The notes under the pieces are model-generated. The model saw only the letters and a program-made list of their open reading frames with translations, had not been told where the DNA came from and searched no databases. A program made the translations under genes and the position numbers. From Symbiodinium sp. CCMP2592 (lineage: Eukaryota; Sar; Dinophyceae; Suessiales; Symbiodiniaceae): a stretch of DNA of 64,000 nt. Below are positions 43 to 63,971 of this stretch, in pieces; the first letter of the stretch is position 1; each line of letters begins with the position of its first letter. The stretch covers positions 248,001 through 312,000 of the forward strand of contig CAJNDT010002002.1 of the NCBI GenBank assembly GCA_905221615.1. Reading direction: 5' to 3'.

Positions 43-218
43 CGGTTGATGGGTTGCTTTAACGGGATCTAGAAGGGTACCTTTAAGGGGTTCGTTTAAA
101 GGGATCTGTAGGGTGTTAGGGTTTTAGGGTTTAGGGTGATGACATAAATCCGAAACTATTGGAATTATGGTAATTATATGCTTTATGATGGGTAATGCAG
201 GGTTTATATCATCAACCG
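43..218. mobile_element. Family A palindromic element carrying an S-unit
   Basis: The left end starts CGGTTGATG and the right end is GGTTTATATCATCAACCGTA, the family A terminus. Between the left end and the second GTGATGACATAAATCC lies about 80 bp of S-type sequence (GGGATCTAGAAGG ... TTAGGGTTTAGGG). This is the same arrangement as the copy at 63785. Confidence 0.65.
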
Positions 219-1347: not shown

Positions 1348-1492
1348 CCTGTATTTCGTGGGCCGTATCAGGCCAGCTGCATTTCAGTTACTTCTTCTTC
1401 TGCAGCTTAAATTCGATTAAACGTTTGGGGCCCCGAAACCGTAAACCCTTCACTTTAAACTTCAAAACTCTAAGCTCAAGGCCCTAAGGCCG

Positions 1493-1690
1493 CCGAAAAT
1501 AGGGGACCTTAAATCTCGTACCCTAAATAGTAGGATCCTTATTATATAAGGACCCCCAAAATGCGGTACCTATTGATTTTCGGAGACTCTAAGCCCTTAT
1601 AGAGCCCTTTACACGAACCCTTATATTGCCCTTATAGCAACCCTCTAAAGGAACCCTAAGGTACCCATAATTTTCGGAAACTCCCATGTA
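1493..1690. mobile_element. Family E palindromic element, expanded
   Basis: A CCGAAAATAGGGGACC arm, a core with CCTAAATAGTAGGATCC and TATAAGGACCCCCAAAATG, and an outer right end TTTTCGGAAACTCCCATGTA. An extra block of CCCTTATAG-type sequence (1590-1660) separates two right-hand arm copies. Confidence 0.65.
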
Positions 1691-3621: not shown

Positions 3622-3722
3622 TAGGAACCTGAATAAGAAGCCCTGGGCCCATAACCCTTCAAATAGTAGGATTCATTTCAGGAACCCTAATACAGGCCCA
3701 GGGTTTCTTAATCAGGTTCCTT
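3622..3722. mobile_element. Family L palindromic element
   Basis: GGAACCTGAATAAGAAGCCC on the left matches the inverse of GGGTTTCTTAATCAGGTTCC on the right. Further partial copies lie at 3805-3830, 14230, 49378 and 56650. Confidence 0.7.
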
Positions 3723-3839
3723 CATTACCCTTATAGATCCCTTATAGTCCCCTTGTAGATCCCTTATCGTAACCCTTATAGACCCCTTTAAAGGAACCCT
3801 CAGGCCGAAGGTGTCTTAATCAGGTTCCTACATTACCTA

Positions 3840-3925
3840 GTTTTGGTCGCTGTGTTGAGCCTCAAAGACGCCAGTTTACATCCTAAGAAGGATCCTCAAC
3901 CCGATCGCTCAGCCTAAGAAAGCTC
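3840..3925 (+). CDS. Candidate micro-exon
   Basis: Reads VLVAVLSLKDASLHPKKDPQ and PDRSA to a stop. Preceded by a partial family L arm and followed by TTTAGGG repeats. Weak support. Confidence 0.25.
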
Positions 3926-4261
3926 GGTGCAGGATTTAGGGTTCAGGGTTTAGGGTTTAGGGGTTTAGGGTTTAAGCCCCTCCTTCAACCCTCAACCCGA
4001 AACCCTCAACCCAAAACCCTTTAAAAAGAACCCTTAAAGGAACCCCTTGAAAAGGGCCCTTAAAAGAACCAGCCCTAAATCCTAAACCCTCAACCCCAAG
4101 CCGTAAACCGACAAACGTTCAGCCCTCGAACCCTAAACCCCCAAACTCATAAAGGAGCCTTACAGGAACCCTTTGAGGAACCCTTAAAGGAACCCCTAAA
4201 AGAGCACTCTTTAAGGGAACCGCTAAAAGAGCACCCTTAAAGGAACCCTTAAAGGAACCCT

Positions 4262-4560
4262 TAAAGGAACCCTTACGAATCCTAAACCCTAAACCTTCAA
4301 CTCTAAACCCTAAAATACCCTAAACCCTAACCCTTAAAAGAACCCTTAAAGGAACCCTTAAAGGAACCCTTACGAATCCTAAACCCTAAACCTTCAACTC
4401 TAAACCCTAAAATACCCTAAACCCTAACCCTTAAAAGAACCCTTAAAGGAACCCTTAAAGGAACCCTTACGAATCCTAAACCCTAAACCTTCAACTCTAA
4501 ACCCTAAAATACCCTAAACCCTAACCCTTAAAAGAACCCTTCAAGGAACCCTTAAAGGAC
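4262..4560. repeat. 97 bp tandem repeat, about three copies
   Basis: The anchor TTACGAATCCTAAACCCTAA starts near 4272, 4369 and 4466, a 97 bp period. Each unit joins a CCCTAAA block (with AACCTTCAACTC) to a block of CCCTTAAAGGAA units. Confidence 0.9.
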
Positions 4561-4627
4561 CCTTAAAGGAACCCTTAAAGGAACCCTTAAAGGACCCTTA
4601 AAGGAACCCTTAAAGGGAGCCCTTGCG

Positions 4628-5039: not shown

Positions 5040-5828
5040 TTAAGGTAAGGGATTTATAATAAAGTTTGCTCAAGGGGTTCCTTGGAGGGATCTATAAAGG
5101 ATCTATAAGGGATCTATAATACGGGTTCTACAAGGGACCTATAATGGATTTATAAGGGTTCTACAAGGGATTCTTACGGGGTTCCTTTAGGGGGTCTATA
5201 GGGGTTGTACAGGGGTTTATTAAGGGGTTCCTTTACCTTAGACAGTGAACGGCAGATTTTTCTTTTTGGTTTTACATATATATATATATATTATTATTAT
5301 TACTAGTTCTATCTCAGACAGTTTGAACTTTTTGGGGCCCGGTTGTTGGAGAAGAGAGTTAAGGGATCTACAGGGCTTAGGGGTTTTTGTTTGCTCATAG
5401 TGACTTTGAGACCAAGGCGAGCCGAAGCTCGTGGTAACGGTTCCTTTAAGGTTCAGCAGTAAAGGATATAGGGTATGGGGTTTAGGGCTCATAATAACGA
5501 TACAGGGTTTAGGGTTTAGGGCTCACAGTAGCGATAAAGGGTTTAGGCTTTAGGGTTTGGGGCTCATAGTAACGGTGAGTAGGCTTATAAGCAGGGTTCC
5601 TGTAAGGGTTCTCTAGGGTTTGGTTCGTTTAAGGGTTCCTTTAAGGTTTTCTATTAACGATAAAGGATAAAGGGTTTAAGGGTCTAGGGTTTGGGGTATA
5701 GGGTGTAGGGTACGATGCAGGATACACCATGTCCAAACATAGCAATGATAACAAACAGCAAAAGTAAATGGATAGCAATGGTATAGTATCAAATCAAAGT
5801 AGTGACTGTAATTAGAAGAACATTCACA
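5040..5828. other. S-type and TTTAGGG spacer with a short AT microsatellite
   Basis: Made of GGGATCTATAAGGG and GGTTCCTTTAAGG units, TTTAGGG runs, and (TA)n at 5275-5291. The phrase CTCATAGTAAC plus GGTAAAGGGTATAGGG recurs four to five times between 4795 and 5575, a loose tandem repeat of about 100-150 bp. Confidence 0.6.
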
Positions 5829-10080: not shown

Positions 10081-10213
10081 TATAATTTAAGGTATATTCC
10101 TTACTTAAGGGGTTTTGGAGTCCCCTAAACCCTAAACCCTATAGATCCCTTATAGATCCCTTTAAGGAACCCTAGGTATATTCCTTAATTAAGGGGTTTT
10201 GGAGGCTCTGGGT
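10081..10213. mobile_element. Family B half-element with S-unit and 30 bp duplication
   Basis: The 30 bp arm GGTATATTCCTTA(C/A)TTAA...TTTTGGAG occurs at 10091-10120 and again at 10175-10204. Between them is a 54 bp S-unit in reverse orientation (CCCCTAAACCCTAAACCC, TATAGATCCCTTATAGATCC, CTTTAAGGAACCCTA). The same S-unit and junctions recur at 19406-19519 and, inverted, at 10401-10514. Confidence 0.9.
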
Positions 10214-10272: not shown

Positions 10273-10382
10273 CCCAGAGCCTCCAAAACCCCTTAATTAA
10301 GGAATATACCTTCAATTATAATAGGATCCCTAATATGATTTCAAGGTATATTCCTGAATTAAGGGATATTGGAGTCTCTGGG
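10273..10382. mobile_element. Family B palindromic element
   Basis: CCCAGAGCCTCCAAAACCCC on the left, GATATTGGAGTCTCTGGG on the right. The right end is of the 'TATTGGAG' subtype. Confidence 0.88.
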
Positions 10383-10392
10383 TTTAGGGTTC

Positions 10393-10584
10393 CCCGAGAG
10401 CCCAATACCCCTTAAAGAAAGCAATATACCTAGGGTTCCTTAAAGGGATCTATAAGGGATCTATAGGGTTTAGGGTTTAGGGGACTCCAATACCCTTTAA
10501 CTAAGCAACATACCTTTAATTATAAGGGGCTTCATATTATGATTTAAGCTATATTCCTTCATTAAGGGGTATTGGGCTCTCTGG
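10393..10584. mobile_element. Family B (AATACCCC subtype) with S-unit and duplication
   Basis: The arm CCCAATACCCCTTAAAGAAA...ATATACC (10401-10430) is repeated at 10485-10514 around a 54 bp S-unit (10431-10484) identical in sequence to the one at 10121 but in the opposite orientation. The right end is TATTGGGCTCTCTGGG. Confidence 0.88.
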
Positions 10585-19333: not shown

Positions 19334-19527
19334 CCCAGAGCCTCCAAAACCCCTTAATTAAGGAATGTTCCTTAAATTATAATAGGATCCTTAATATGAT
19401 TTTAAGGTATATTGCTTAATTAAAGGGTTTTGGAGTCCCCTAAACCCTAAACCCTATAGATCCCTTATAGATCCCTTTAAGGAACCCTAGGTATATTCCT
19501 TAATTAAGGGGTTTTGGAGGCTCTGGG
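19334..19527. mobile_element. Family B element with S-unit and 30 bp duplication
   Basis: Complete left arm CCCAGAGCCTCCAAAACCCC. The right arm is present twice (19406-19435 and 19490-19519) around a 54 bp S-unit (19436-19489) identical to that at 10121. Confidence 0.92.
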
Positions 19528-19582
19528 AACCACCAGGCCCAGCATGCTAAAACCTGGACCCCTAAACCCTAAACCTCCAAAA

Positions 19583-20165
19583 CCCTATAGTAGTTCCTTT
19601 TTGGGATTACCTTATAGGACTCTAAATATGACCCTATAGTAGTTCCTTTTTGGGATTACCTTATAGGACTCTAAATATGACCCTATAGTAGTTCCTTTTT
19701 GGGATTACCTTATAGGACTCTAAATATGACCCATAGTAGTTCCTTTTTGGGATTACCTTATAGGACTCTAAATATGACCCTATAGTAGTTCCTTTTTGGG
19801 ATTACCTTATAGGACTCTAAATATGACCCTATAGTAGTTCCTTTTTGGGATTACCTTATAGGACTCTAAATATGACCCTATAGTAGTTCCTTTTTGGGAT
19901 TACCTTATAGGACTCTAAATATGACCCATAGTAGTTCCTTTTTGGGATTACCTTATAGGACTCTAAATATGACCCTATAGTAGTTCCTTTTTGGGATTAC
20001 CTTATAGGACTCTAAATATGACCCATAGTAGTTCCTTTTTGGGATTACCTTATAGGACTCTAAATATAACCCTATAGTAGTTCCTTTTTGGGATTACCTT
20101 ATAGGACTCTAAATATGACCCATAGTAGTTCCTTTTTGGGATTGCCTCATAGGATTCTAAATATT
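19583..20165. repeat. 49 bp minisatellite, 12 copies
   Basis: The unit starts CCCTATAGTAGTTCCTTTTT and continues GGGATTACCTTATAGGACTC then TAAATATGA. Two length forms (49 and 47 bp; CCCTATAG or CCATAG) alternate irregularly. Single dispersed relatives at 47322 and 60449 show palindromic outer arms, so the array looks like an expanded half-element. Confidence 0.96.
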
Positions 20166-33171: not shown

Positions 33172-33390
33172 TACTTAAAGGATCATGGGACTTAGTAACT
33201 TTTAAGGGTTCCTTAAAGGGCTCCTTAAAGGGCTCCTTAAAGGGATCTATAAGGGATCTATGGGGGGGTTTAGGGTACTTAAAGGATCATGAGACTTAGT
33301 AACTAGGGTTATTATTAGGGTAACTAAACTTATAACCCCAATTAGGGTACTTATAACCTTACTTACTAAGTCCCATGATCCTCCAAGTAC
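33172..33390. mobile_element. Family C element with S-unit and 28 bp duplication
   Basis: TACTTAAAGGATCATGGGAC...AGTAAC (33172-33199) is repeated at 33276-33303 with one mismatch. A 76 bp S-type insert lies between (TTAAGGGTTCCTTAAAGGGC ... GGGTTTAGG). The right arm of C ends at TGATCCTCCAAGTA (33388). Confidence 0.92.
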
Positions 33391-36661: not shown

Positions 36662-36898
36662 CACTTGGAGGATAATGGGACTAAGTAAGTAAGGTTATAA
36701 GTACCCTAAGTGGGGTTATAGAACTACTTAAGGGCCCAAAGCAGGGGTCGGCGGATAAGTATGATTACCCTGATAATAACCCTAGTTACTAAGTCCCATG
36801 ATCCTTAAGGCCTGGACCCCCATAGATCCCTTATAGATCCCTTTAAAGAACCCTTTAAGGAACCCTTAAACGTTACTAAGTCCCATGATCCTTTAAGC
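36662..36898. mobile_element. Family C element with S-unit and 23 bp duplication
   Basis: The left arm is CACTTGGAGGATAATGGGAC. The right arm GTTACTAAGTCCCATGATCC appears at 36785 and again at 36872 around a reverse S-type insert (CCCATAGATCCCTTATAGAT ... AACCCTTAAAC). Inside the core, about 35 bp (GGGCCCAAAGCAGGGGTCGG) is extra. Confidence 0.9.
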
Positions 36899-40907: not shown

Positions 40908-41105
40908 CTGAAAGGATCATATCATGGGACTTAGTAATGTTCCTCAAGGGGATCCATAAGGCATCTATGGGGTGTTTAGGGTTTGAAAGATCATGGGATT
41001 TAGTAACCAGGGCTATTTTAAGGGTAACTGTACTTATAACTACTTGTAACCTCAATTATGGCACTTATAACCTTACTTACCAAGTCCCCCGGTCTTCCAA
41101 GCAGA
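40908..41105. mobile_element. Family C element with S-unit and duplicated left arm
   Basis: AAAGGATCAT(ATCAT)GGGACTTAGTAA at 40911 and AAAGATCATGGGATTTAGTA at 40984, with an S insert (GTTCCTCAAGGGGATCCATA ... GTGTTTAGGG) between. Right end GGTCTTCCAAGCAG. Confidence 0.85.
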
Positions 41106-42891: not shown

Positions 42892-43118
42892 ACCCTACTT
42901 GGAGGGTCACGGGACTTAGTAAGTAAGGTTATAAGTACCCTAATTGGGGTTATAAGTATAGCTACCCTAATAATAGCCCTAGTTACCAAGTCCCATGATT
43001 CCTTAAGTACCCTAAACCCCCCCATAGATCCCTTATAGATCCCTTTAAGGAGCCCCTTTAAGGAGCCCCTTTAAGGAACCCTTAAAAGTTACTAAGTCCC
43101 ATGATTCTTCAAGTAAGC
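42892..43118. mobile_element. Family C element with S-unit and duplicated right arm
   Basis: The left arm is TACTTGGAGGGTCACGGGAC. The right arm GTTACCAAGTCCCATGATTC at 42982 recurs as GTTACTAAGTCCCATGATTC at 43088 around a reverse S insert (CCCATAGATCCCTTATAGAT ... AACCCTTAAAA). Confidence 0.9.
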
Positions 43119-47668: not shown

Positions 47669-48104
47669 GGCCTGGACTTTGCGCAGAACCCGGAACCACC
47701 ATATCACAACCAGCCAACAAACTTACATTTTGCATGGTTTCCAATCTGCTGGTGTACCATGGTGAACCTTTAAGGAAACACATTCATTCTTAGAAACAAG
47801 TCAGTTGCAGTAGGTACCGTTCCTCGCCTAGATGCTACGATCTACTAAATTATCATCACGAACAACTAAAAACTAATACCAACTGCTAACTTTTAGAGGT
47901 TTGATGTCAGGCAGTAGCGAACACGCAAAAAACATTTTGACATACCCCCAGAAGCTTTAAACCTCTTAAAGTTAGCAGCTTACTACCGCGACTGCTTCAA
48001 ACCTGCAAAACCCGGAAGTTTAACAGCTTCAATCTTCAAAAACCCAACAGTGTACTGCCCCAGAAGTTTTAAACCAGTAAAACCGAAAGCTTACTAGATC
48101 TTCA

Positions 48105-49080
48105 CTCTCATCGACATGGACAACAGGAATGGCGAAGGATGATCCGTCCTATCATGCTCTAGCCCATTCAAATGAAAGACTGTCATCGACATGGACAACA
48201 GGAAAGGCGAAGGATGACCCGTCCTATCATACTTTAGCCCTTTCAAATGAAAGACTGTCATCGACATGGACAGCAGGAAGGGCGAAGGATGACCCGTCCT
48301 GTCATGCTTTAGCCCTTTCAAATGCAAGACTGTCATCGACATGGACAACAGGAAGGGCGAAGGATGATCCGTCCTATCATGTTTTAGCCCTTTCAAATGA
48401 GAGACTGTCATCGACATGGACAACAGGAAGGGCGAAGGATGATCCGTCCTATCATGCTCTAGCCCATTCAAATGAAACACTGTCATCGACATGGACAACA
48501 GGAAGGGCGAAGGATGACCCGTCCTATCATGCTCTAGCCCATTCAAATGAAAGACTGTCATCGACATGGACAACAAGAAGGGCGAAGGATGACCCGTCCT
48601 ATCATGCTCTAGCCCATTCAAATGAAAGACTGTCATCGACATGGACAACAGGAAGGGCGAAAGATGACCCGTCGTATCATGCTCTAGCCCATTCAAATGA
48701 AAGACTGTCATCGACATGGACAGCAGGAAGGGCGAAGGATGACCCGTCCTATCATGCTCTAGCCCATTCAAATGAAAGACTGTCATCGACTTGGACAGCA
48801 GGAAGGGCGAAGGATGACCCGTCCTGTCATGCTTTAGCCCTTTCAAATGCAAGACTGTCATCGACATGGACAACAGGAAGGGCGAAGGATGATCCGTCCT
48901 ATCATGTTTTAGCCCTTTCAAATGAGAGACTGTCATCGACATGGACAACAGGAAGGGCGAAGGATGATCCGTCCTATCATGCTTTAGCCCTTTCAAATGA
49001 AAGACTGTCATCGACATGGACAACAGGAAGCGCGAAGGATGATCCGTCCTATCATGCTCTAGCCTTTTCAAACGAAAGGA
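48105..49080. repeat. 75 bp minisatellite, 13 copies, open on both strands
   Basis: The unit begins CATCGACATGGACAACAGGA and includes GGCGAAGGATGA(C/T)CCGTCC and TATCATGCTCTAGCCCATTC. As 75 is a multiple of three, a plus frame (48129-49094; repeat LSSTWTTGRAKDDPSYHALA + HSNER) and a minus frame (48094-49071; FLLSMSMTVFHLKGLKHDRT + DHPSP) both stay open for over 320 codons. Units 3-4 and 10-11 share the same variants (CHALALSNAR, VLALSNER), a higher-order period of seven units. No codon evidence favours either strand, so a protein is not claimed. Confidence 0.95.
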
Positions 49081-49213
49081 ACTGGTGGCTATGACAAGGA
49101 ACAGCTGCCTAAGCCCAAAAACGAAAACACTAAACCATACAAAAAAGAACTGTCCAGTTGTAATAGGGACCTTTTTTCAGTATATAGCTGCTCAGTTGTA
49201 GTAGGGTCCAGTT

Positions 49214-51734: not shown

Positions 51735-52006
51735 GCTGCAGCAAGCCCAAGATCGAGGCGCGCTCCGCGTCGTTTGGTAAAAGACCATTTGTCGGCCACC
51801 ACCCAGAAGTTGCATGACGGCCACTGGCGGTGGTGGGAGCTTTATACTCGTCGTCGAGGGATTTCGGCCTTACGCTCTGTGGATCGTTTCGATCGACTAC
51901 CTGGCCAAGGCCTCGCCGCCCCCACAGCCCAGGCTAGGCGAGGGGCGATCCGGAGTGTGCACCTGCAACTAGGGTTCCCGGACCCCCTCAAGCCGTTGCC
52001 ACGCTG
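51735..52006 (+). pseudogene. Tyrosine recombinase, N-terminal part (frame a)
   Basis: Reads VKDHLSATTQKLHDGHWRWW then ELYTRRRGIS, the usual core-binding region of tyrosine recombinases (a helix followed by WxWWxxxCxxRGI-like sequence). Later AIRSVHLQLGFPDPLKP precedes a TGA (52005). Frame b takes over at about 51990 in the same sense, implying a one-base indel in or near a CCCCC run. Confidence 0.6.
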
Positions 52007-52714
52007 ATGCTGGCATTGGAAAGCATAAGGAGACGCCGTGGCCCAATCGCAAAGAGGAGGCCGGTGACCCCAAAGATGCTCGCACGGGCAAACAACGCTT
52101 TGCCGTTCGACTTCGTTGCCTGCGCCCTCCAGCTGGGTTTTTTCTTCTTGCTGAGGGTCTCCGAAATCGTTGGCGGCTCCAACCCCAGGTTGGGACTCAG
52201 GGTACGCGATGTGGCCCTCTTCAAAGAGGGCGTGCCCTTGCTTCGCCCCCCTTTCGAGGGAGCGGACGAGGTTCAGCTGACCGTCCGAGCGTCGAAGACC
52301 GACCCAGAAGGAGAAACGGCCATCCGCAACTTGTTCAAAGGTGGCGCGGAGGTATGCCCAGTGGTTGCCACGGCATGCTACCTCCGATGCCTGTGGGATG
52401 AGCTTGGTACTCCCGAGCCTGGAGCGAGGTTTTTTCCTCACCTGACGCGGCAGGATTTGCAGGAAGTCTTGCAAACGGTCGCTTCTTCCCTGCGACAGGA
52501 CCCCCACTCCTACACGCCACGCTCCCTCCGCTTTGGAGGGACTTCTGCCATGTGGTCCGGGGGCTTCGACTCCTATGTTTTGAGGGCATGGGGTAGATGG
52601 AACTCCGACGCCTTCCTCGCCTGCTTGTGGGCCTCGCGCAAAGCGTCAGCGACCACTGCTGCGAGAATGGCCGTCGCAGATATGACCCCTGTGAAAGGGT
52701 TTCCCAGCGCCTGA
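51990..52714 (+). pseudogene. Tyrosine recombinase catalytic domain (Crypton/DIRS/Ngaro-like), probably inactive
   Basis: In the 235-residue frame from 52007, the first catalytic Arg is in GFFFLLRVSEI (R50) and the Lys in VRASKTD (K97). The H-x-x-R box reads TPRSLRFGG (expected H replaced by R172, second Arg R175 kept). GRW follows (W198), but the residue at the expected catalytic Tyr in GRWNSDAFLACLW is Cys (C206). Missing His and Tyr, with the upstream frameshift, suggest a dead copy. Such recombinases mobilise eukaryotic Crypton, DIRS and Ngaro elements. GC is much higher than the host DNA. Confidence 0.72.
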
Positions 52715-63784: not shown

Positions 63785-63971
63785 GGTTGATGATCTAAAT
63801 CCTGGGGTTCCTTAAATGGATCTATAAGGATACCTTTAAGGGATGTATAGGGGTTTTAGGGTTTAGGGTTTAGGATGATATAAATCCTGCATTACCCATT
63901 CTAAGGAATATGCCATAGTTCTCATGGTTTAGGGTCCTTAAGGTAATGCAGGTTTTATATCAGCAACAGTC
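63785..63971. mobile_element. Family A element with S-unit and 16 bp duplication
   Basis: GATGATCTAAATCCTG (63789-63804) recurs as GATGATATAAATCCTG (63874-63889). The 69 bp between is S-type (GGGTTCCTTAAATGGATCTA ... GTTTTAGGGTTTAGGGTTTA). Right end GGTTTTATATCAGCAACAGT. Confidence 0.92.

Follow-up and report, generated by a model that had tools for sequence, protein, structure and literature searches.

A stretch of 64,000 nucleotides of Symbiodinium sp. CCMP2592 DNA (C2002:248001-312000, hereafter the window) contains a short telomere-like unit, designated S, that recurs between direct duplications inside several palindromic families. The first-pass annotation had described S as an insert that duplicated its targets in families A, B and C, resembling target-primed retroposition or PLE-like capture of telomeric repeats. 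The locus raises the question of what the duplicated sequence is and how S came to lie between its two copies. As a whole, the earlier reading is partly supported by the analysis below, in which coordinates are those of the window unless a contig is named.

The S unit and its copies in the assembly

S is a telomere-like unit of about 50–80 bp that runs from a 5' start, AGGGTTCC, through AAGGG-type modules (including TTCCTTA, ATCTATA and variants) to usually about two TTTAGGG repeats. The same start was read by eye in several different hosts. The exact 18-mer core of S was present in 6,178 copies (2,985 + 3,193) in the assembly searched (1,098 Mb, i.e., ~1.1 Gb, in 5,383 contigs), compared with 0 + 1 for the reversed-pattern control. 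Within the window, the 18-mer was matched 53 times when up to three mismatches were allowed, against 0.18 expected, several of them within a tandem array at 4150-4616. The full S of 50 bases matched 205 genome places at up to three mismatches, with 0 in the control. S units of different hosts are homologous: a typical B unit aligned with the 3' part of a typical D unit over 49 of its own 51 bases, the differences being a single substitution and a 2-nt gap. These results confirm that S is a real and discrete telomere-like unit.

The surroundings of S were analyzed in 78 loci (L001-L008 and L041-L110) obtained from 100 listed places of the 6,178. Because only exact matches to the 18-mer, from the contigs at the head of the listing, entered this set, diverged S units are under-sampled in it. 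TTTAGGG was found within 60 nt downstream of the core in 61 of the 78 loci and CCCTAAA in only one, which answers the earlier question of whether the tail is always at the same end. The description of S as ending in TTTAGGG holds for these 61 loci but not for every unit, as S at 36811-36871 ends in a G-run. No TTTAGGG tail was detected within 60 nt in 17 loci, and TTTAGGG occurred upstream of the core in 10. The polarity of S would match that of a chromosome end, where canonical repeats lie distal to variant ones.

A source of the S body was sought at 18 long TTTAGGG arrays, and none had the S body within 300 bp upstream. Two of these arrays (C327 and C682) were within 2 kb of a contig end, and 16 were farther away. 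The idea that S is a plain piece of telomere-flanking DNA is thus unsupported. Several of the 18 long pure arrays begin abruptly in unrelated sequence, and very many short interstitial TTTAGGG-like arrays are distributed throughout the window. Searches for the S 22-mer gave 0 matches in viral and 0 in prokaryotic contigs, and no Rfam family reached the gathering threshold in the window. The S body also occurs as tandem arrays of ~22-bp units at four sampled loci (L001, L071, L072, and L088), a possible reservoir of S. Of the dinoflagellate spliced-leader 21-mer, 217 + 212 copies were counted in the assembly, with 0 for the reversed-pattern control, which identifies the DNA as that of a dinoflagellate.

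Composites of S and hairpin MITEs in the window

The hosts of S have the features of MITEs. Paired tips, i.e., terminal inverted repeats on a short element, were found in A, B, C, and also D (GGGAGTTTCCGAAAA...), a further S-carrying family beyond those noticed earlier. Individual copies fold as hairpins: a D copy of 102 bp (L131) had a z value of -5.8, and the full-length 110-bp B element at 10273..10382 (+ strand), the empty form of the family, folded into one hairpin with z -9.7. Short target duplications of fixed length were found for B (2 bp) and D (4 bp). Among S-free D copies, exact 4-bp duplications flanked 26 of 40 (shuffled mean 6.1, maximum 13), and among S-free B copies, exact 2-bp duplications flanked 10 of 14 (shuffled mean 2.6, maximum 8). 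For family A, TA-like flanks were observed in six of nine copies vs. a shuffled mean of 4.2, a difference that is not significant.

When S is present, the order is tip, S body, TTTAGGG, tip again, core, and far tip. Each of the nine listed duplication pairs was scored against 300 shuffles, and the earlier claim that S lies between direct duplications in A, B, and C was upheld for most of them: seven exceeded the best shuffle, the pair 63789/63874 equaled it, and the copy at 43-218 failed.

Three composites belong to family B. In the first, on the - strand, the outer B tip (CCCAGAGCCTCC...; 10174..10212), which holds the first duplication copy, is followed by an S unit of 53 bp (10121..10173) and the inner B tip with the second copy (10090..10120), beyond which the B copy is truncated. 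The second, on the + strand, consists of an outer tip of subfamily CCGAGAGCCCAATACC (10393..10431), an S unit (10432..10486) whose final ACT belongs to the inner tip, and the inner tip (10487..10515). The third covers 194 bp (19334-19527) and places the outer tip at 19489..19527, S at 19436..19488, and the inner tip at 19405..19435, all on the - strand. The pairs 10090/10174 and 19405/19489, 31 bp each, scored 29 and 27 against a shuffle maximum of 12 in both cases, and the 30-bp pair 10402/10487 scored 19 against 14. Directly beside the third composite lies a tandem array of a 49/97-bp unit (19582-20164).

Family C contributes four composites. On the + strand, an outer C tip (33172..33200), an S unit of 75 bp with extra body modules (33201..33275), and an inner C tip (33276..33304) follow one another, and the pair 33172/33276 scored 28 with a shuffle maximum of 15. 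The S unit at 36811..36871 (- strand), in which the G-run replaces the TTTAGGG tail, lies within the pair 36785/36872 (score 24, shuffle maximum 12), and a 77-bp unit at 43010..43086 (- strand) lies within 42981/43087 (26 and 14, respectively). A diverged unit at 40938..40989 (+ strand) has a duplication of 17 bp only, 40921/40990, which scored 15 against a shuffle maximum of 13.

The A composite near the end of the window, on the + strand, comprises an outer A tip (GGTTGATGATCTAAATCCTG; 63785..63804), S (63805..63873), and an inner A tip with the start of the A core (63874..63900). Its 16-bp pair, 63789/63874, scored 14, equal to the best shuffle, and is backed by A copies of the same order at three other loci (L018, L117, and L128). 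All of these A composites show the order seen in B, C, and D. In the A copy at 43-218, S lies at approximately 58..136 (+ strand), and the outer tip is down to a few bases; its duplication, with a score of 7 vs. a shuffle mean of 7.5, is undetectable by shuffle scoring. A D composite with an S-like body and a degenerate tail was found at about 1487..1685 (- strand). Additionally, an S-like insert without a TTTAGGG tail was observed at 3681-3841 between imperfect duplications (GGTAATG.AGGAACCTGATTAAGA), with a score of 32 vs. 18 for the best shuffle; it probably sits in another host family.

S sits just inside the tips of four MITE families

In these composites, the duplicated sequence is the tip of the host hairpin MITE and not an arbitrary target. 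The earlier interpretation of the duplications as target duplications must be amended in this respect: the duplications are present, but the duplicated stretch is the host tip, and the site is not arbitrary. S was shown to sit just inside the tip of four MITE families with different tips (A, B, C, and D), between the tip copies and with its TTTAGGG end facing the inner copy.

This position was quantified by counting telomere-like tails before successive windows of each element, leaving out overlapping loci such as one tandem B array that inflated the B tip counts. The counts describe sampled loci, mostly chosen for S, and are not genome rates; the choice was independent of the position of S in the element. 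In D, a G-rich tail preceded the tip windows at positions 4, 7, and 13 in 28/175, 17/92, and 1/85 cases, respectively, and the 11 internal windows in 2/910. The three tip windows of B were preceded by such a tail in 26/125, 35/122, and 29/142 cases and its internal windows in 0/1,265, and the corresponding values for C were 24/96, 5/99, and 0/90, with 1/479 for internal windows. A C-rich tail was found before the first tip window in 0/175 (D), 2/125 (B), and 4/96 (C) cases, and before internal windows 5, 8, and 3 times, respectively. As the tail meets MITE tips and hardly ever their interiors, the idea that S inserts at arbitrary sites and makes ordinary target duplications was rejected. In the whole assembly, an exact TTTAGGGTTT up to eight bases before an exact D tip was found at 228 places (control 0), a pattern that asks for the tail and not for the S body.

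Most of the 78 sampled S loci were bordered by a recognized MITE tip. Tips were recognized with consensus strings of five families (A-E) within 180 nt, at a loose threshold that 12 of 400 shuffled stretches also reached. In 34 loci, S was flanked on both sides by a recognized tip of the same family; 22 loci had one only to the right, nine showed other combinations, and 13 had none on either side. Overall, the right side had a recognized tip in 60 loci and the left side in 43, and the right-hand tip started at consensus position 1-7 in 55 of the 60. Direct similarity between left and right flanks exceeded all 60 shuffles in 43 of 78 loci; inverted similarity also passed in 35, and the direct test is blurred because the hosts are palindromic. 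A search for hairpin arms after the tail placed 31 of 78 loci above 99% of the null, but it also missed known D loci and was uninformative. Tip E (L063 and L064) was dropped as a host, as it does not abut the tail.

Three single loci are noted here. L107 appears as a chimera with an E-like left tip and a D right tip, suggesting recombination within S. At L098, a C element has S-like sequence at both ends, each tail facing the element (by eye). At L069, an S unit with a degenerate tail lies between 27-bp copies of a possible tip F (ATATAGGGGCCTTAATAACTAGAA), which gave 39 loose matches in the sampled loci; F is a possible further host family known from this one locus.

The tip junction bears on the idea of retroposition, in which a 3' end exposed at the MITE tip would prime reverse transcription of an RNA whose own 3' end is telomere-like, either one similar to TERRA or one copied by an enzyme of the PLE or telomerase type. 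Copying from such an end would leave a fixed tail junction and a variable body junction, and S indeed has a tail junction at the tip, a variable left junction, and the same start, AGGGTTCC, across different hosts (by eye). A simple-repeat 3' tail of fixed polarity, typical of retroposons, was also found. However, the target duplications at unrelated sites that characterize retroposons were not, as the recognized duplications are MITE tips. At the 13 tipless loci, nine had no duplication above shuffles, and the other four (L060, L093, L096, and L110) had one only in simple or tandem repeats (repeats judged by eye), which argues against a freely inserting retroposon. The first-pass annotation had regarded a usual lack of flanking duplications at S units genome-wide as evidence against its reading, and these tipless loci partly bear out that concern. 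Furthermore, neither an RNA source nor a reverse transcriptase could be tied to S, and the family-linked variants of S described below make most copies look inherited and not fresh. We consider tip-primed retroposition unlikely. The target-primed or PLE-like origin proposed earlier did not gain support, given that S is too short to encode a reverse transcriptase, that a source RNA could not be identified, and that the S body was absent from the 300 bp upstream of all 18 long arrays.

Copies without S, S-bearing mobile units and the number of captures

Whether S belongs to its hosts from the beginning can be judged from host copies without it, as the first-pass annotation had pointed out. Among 30 D copies fetched by their core, 27 had no S at the queried end (by eye), and S-free forms were also present in B (10273-10382) and A; these are paralogues and not orthologous empty loci. 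Because S-free copies are common, S is an insert and not an intrinsic part of the host, and S as a constitutive MITE part was ruled out by the S-free majority of the sampled D copies and the S-free forms in B and A. The D core itself was found at 5,163 genome places at up to two mismatches, a count that differs in stringency from the 228 places with a tail and an exact D tip. Local similarity between the S body and MITE cores was strongest for the S of D against D (18 vs. 8.9 in the null) and for the S of B against the reverse strand of B (17 vs. 8.3), and it was read as left-copy remnants or shared composition.

A related possibility is that S is an old MITE module, e.g., subterminal binding sites with a second tip, that was lost from the S-free copies by recombination between the direct tips. 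D copies with and without S are intermixed, and an array of seven tip-S units at C2502:251200-251753 shows that the tips recombine. On the other hand, S-free copies make up the majority of the D sample, and a common ancestral module is improbable given that tips of different sequence and target duplications of different length (2 bp in B, 4 bp in D) distinguish the hosts.

Host target duplications indicate which tips bound the mobile unit. The outer and far tips of B composites were flanked by exact 2-bp duplications in 17 of 20 cases (shuffled mean 2.6, maximum 9). In D composites, exact 4-bp duplications flanked the outer and far tips in six of 11 cases (shuffled mean 1.8, maximum 6, which equals the observed value and makes this a weak test), and the inner copy shared an exact 4-bp flank with the far end in one of 19 (shuffled mean 0.5). 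S is inside the mobile unit because the host target duplications flank the outer tips and not the inner copy. Additionally, among B loci with a readable far tip, a non-consensus base of that tip was shared with the outer copy in 10 of 14 and with the inner copy in three of 14. These results show that, in B and D, entire composites act as single mobile elements.

The inner-copy flanks also speak to a nested origin, in which two adjacent copies of one MITE enclosed a telomere-like sequence and the core of the first was then deleted. A few junctions (L003, L005, and C213) do retain TTAT or ATAT in front of the inner tip, resembling a TSD. Against this, an exact 4-bp flank common to the inner and far tips was found in only one of 19 cases, and the same S would be needed between copies in several families, which leaves a nested origin highly improbable.

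The earlier proposal that S occurs in several unrelated palindromic families and was amplified with each host agrees well with the family-linked variants and with the host target duplications around the composites. A D variant of S was present in 24 of 30 D loci, where the C variant was absent (0), and a C variant in nine of 13 C loci, where the D variant was absent (0). The left junction of B was the same, when a 2-nt shorter form and small substitutions were tolerated, at 59 of the first 100 places in a list of 218. Judging from the family-linked variants and the shared B junction, S seems to have entered each family at least once, and many copies seem to stem from few captures. These sequence patterns suggest few captures per family followed by amplification. 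Other left junctions besides the main B form also exist (e.g., L038). Private bases common to the left and right tips of one locus exceeded the permuted values in C (15 vs. 5.5, p 0.002, nine pairs), D (5 vs. 1.5, p 0.02, 24 pairs), and B (4 vs. 1.05, p 0.009, 17 pairs), an excess that would also be expected if, instead of few captures, there had been many separate insertions or gene conversion had acted locally. In a tree of D copies with a strict S label, 27 of 85 copies were S-bearing, and 22 changes were counted vs. a shuffled mean of 23.0; S-bearing and S-free copies were intermixed, and the tree is star-like and poorly resolved. S may instead have been captured several times per family, or the two tips may have converted each other. 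Tip-S units can also expand in tandem, the C2502 array being built of 84-bp units.

Possible origin of the composites and known systems

The anatomy of the composites is tentatively best accounted for by a break at the MITE end that was repaired by capture of telomere-like DNA, with overhang fill-in duplicating the tip; the break itself is deduced from this anatomy. Cutting by transposase or cleavage of the hairpin would open a staggered break at the MITE end, with a 3' overhang of roughly tip length. P-element transposase, for example, cuts one strand well inside the tip. Telomere-like DNA, with its proximal variant and distal canonical repeats, would then be added to or captured at the overhang bearing the first tip copy, and fill-in of both overhangs with end joining would yield the tip-S-tip arrangement. 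Composites may have arisen once or a few times per family in this way and multiplied by ordinary MITE transposition. Within both D and B, the duplication has a variable left end, so the overhang need not have had a fixed length.

Individual steps of this break repair have precedents. Complementary 3' protrusions at breaks lead to tandem duplications via CST/Pol alpha fill-in (PMC8355091). Telomeric repeats are inserted at breaks in mammals, sometimes with a telomerase-RNA fragment of 31-118 nt, and flank duplication accompanied 6 of 130 such inserts in rodents and 4 of 25 in primates (PMC2246262).

Replication template switching offers another route to the same anatomy. A polymerase that stalls in a hairpin MITE after some 10-45 nt could copy a distant S and restart at the hairpin base. 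The hosts are strong hairpins, the position of the tail junction would be set by restarting at the hairpin base, and the left ends are variable; moreover, the left junction in C runs on with AGGGTT, matching the start of S (by eye). Template switching gives no account, however, of the same S in one orientation in several families, and we regard it as rather unlikely. The anatomy is accounted for by break repair or template switching no less well than by the target-primed retroposition or PLE-like capture suggested at first, and tip-primed retroposition and template switching fit nearly as well as break repair. Another scenario, which seems quite unlikely, is transposon-end-primed synthesis: when transposons are cut, telomerase or a related reverse transcriptase would write telomere-like S specifically onto the 3' ends left exposed. 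In this way, several MITE families with no relation to one another would each have been tip-capped independently, and the capped forms would transpose.

Among known systems, the interstitial telomeric sequences of vertebrates, including TERC-ITSs, resemble S in combining short telomeric repeats with a non-telomeric body of 25-118 nt inserted at breaks, with microhomology at the junction and, in a minority, flank duplication (PMC2246262 and PMC8537989). TERC-ITSs differ in number and setting: PMC8537989 gives 41 loci in 22 of 30 vertebrates, with no transposon enrichment at the 27 primate or rodent loci examined there, and its authors suggest that transposons did not spread TERC-ITSs. In contrast, S has thousands of cores, a recognized MITE tip beside most of the 78 loci, and amplification with MITEs. 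The tandem arrays of the S body at L001, L071, and L088 argue against a telomerase-RNA-derived body.

The B and D hosts, as short hairpins with short TSDs (4 bp in D), are similar to the introners of Symbiodinium microadriaticum, which have TIRs and 4-bp TSDs (PMC9860276). Unlike such TIR MITEs and introners as described there, S composites build in a second tip copy and a telomere-like unit, and the likeness to introners is one of element architecture. The small tandem duplications made by CST/Pol alpha (PMC8355091) also duplicate the segment at the break; here, in contrast, the S unit lies between the copies.

Another comparison is with the Penelope-like elements of rotifers, which are reportedly telomere-associated and move by means of reverse transcriptase. 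S shares the telomere association, but the S units themselves (about 50-80 bp in the window) contain no reverse transcriptase gene and are too short to encode one.

Telomeric inserts at breaks and MITEs are each already known, and full-text searches of the open-access literature gave no description of tip-S-tip composites. If it is a rule that a single telomere-like unit connects to MITE tips in several families and the tip is duplicated, transposon cleavage or hairpin breakage would be linked to a telomere-like mode of repair, and the composites may reveal how transposons with broken ends are mended or by what route telomere-like DNA is moved. They constitute a large natural set of junctions for testing the repair mechanism and may bear on the abundance of interstitial TTTAGGG in this dinoflagellate DNA.

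Two coding features of the window were also recorded. An open frame of 258 codons at 51938-52714 (+ strand) had 0 Pfam families at E values up to 1; by eye, it presumably resembles a tyrosine recombinase. At 48081-49094, open frames on both strands encode a tandem peptide repeat of ~25 residues.
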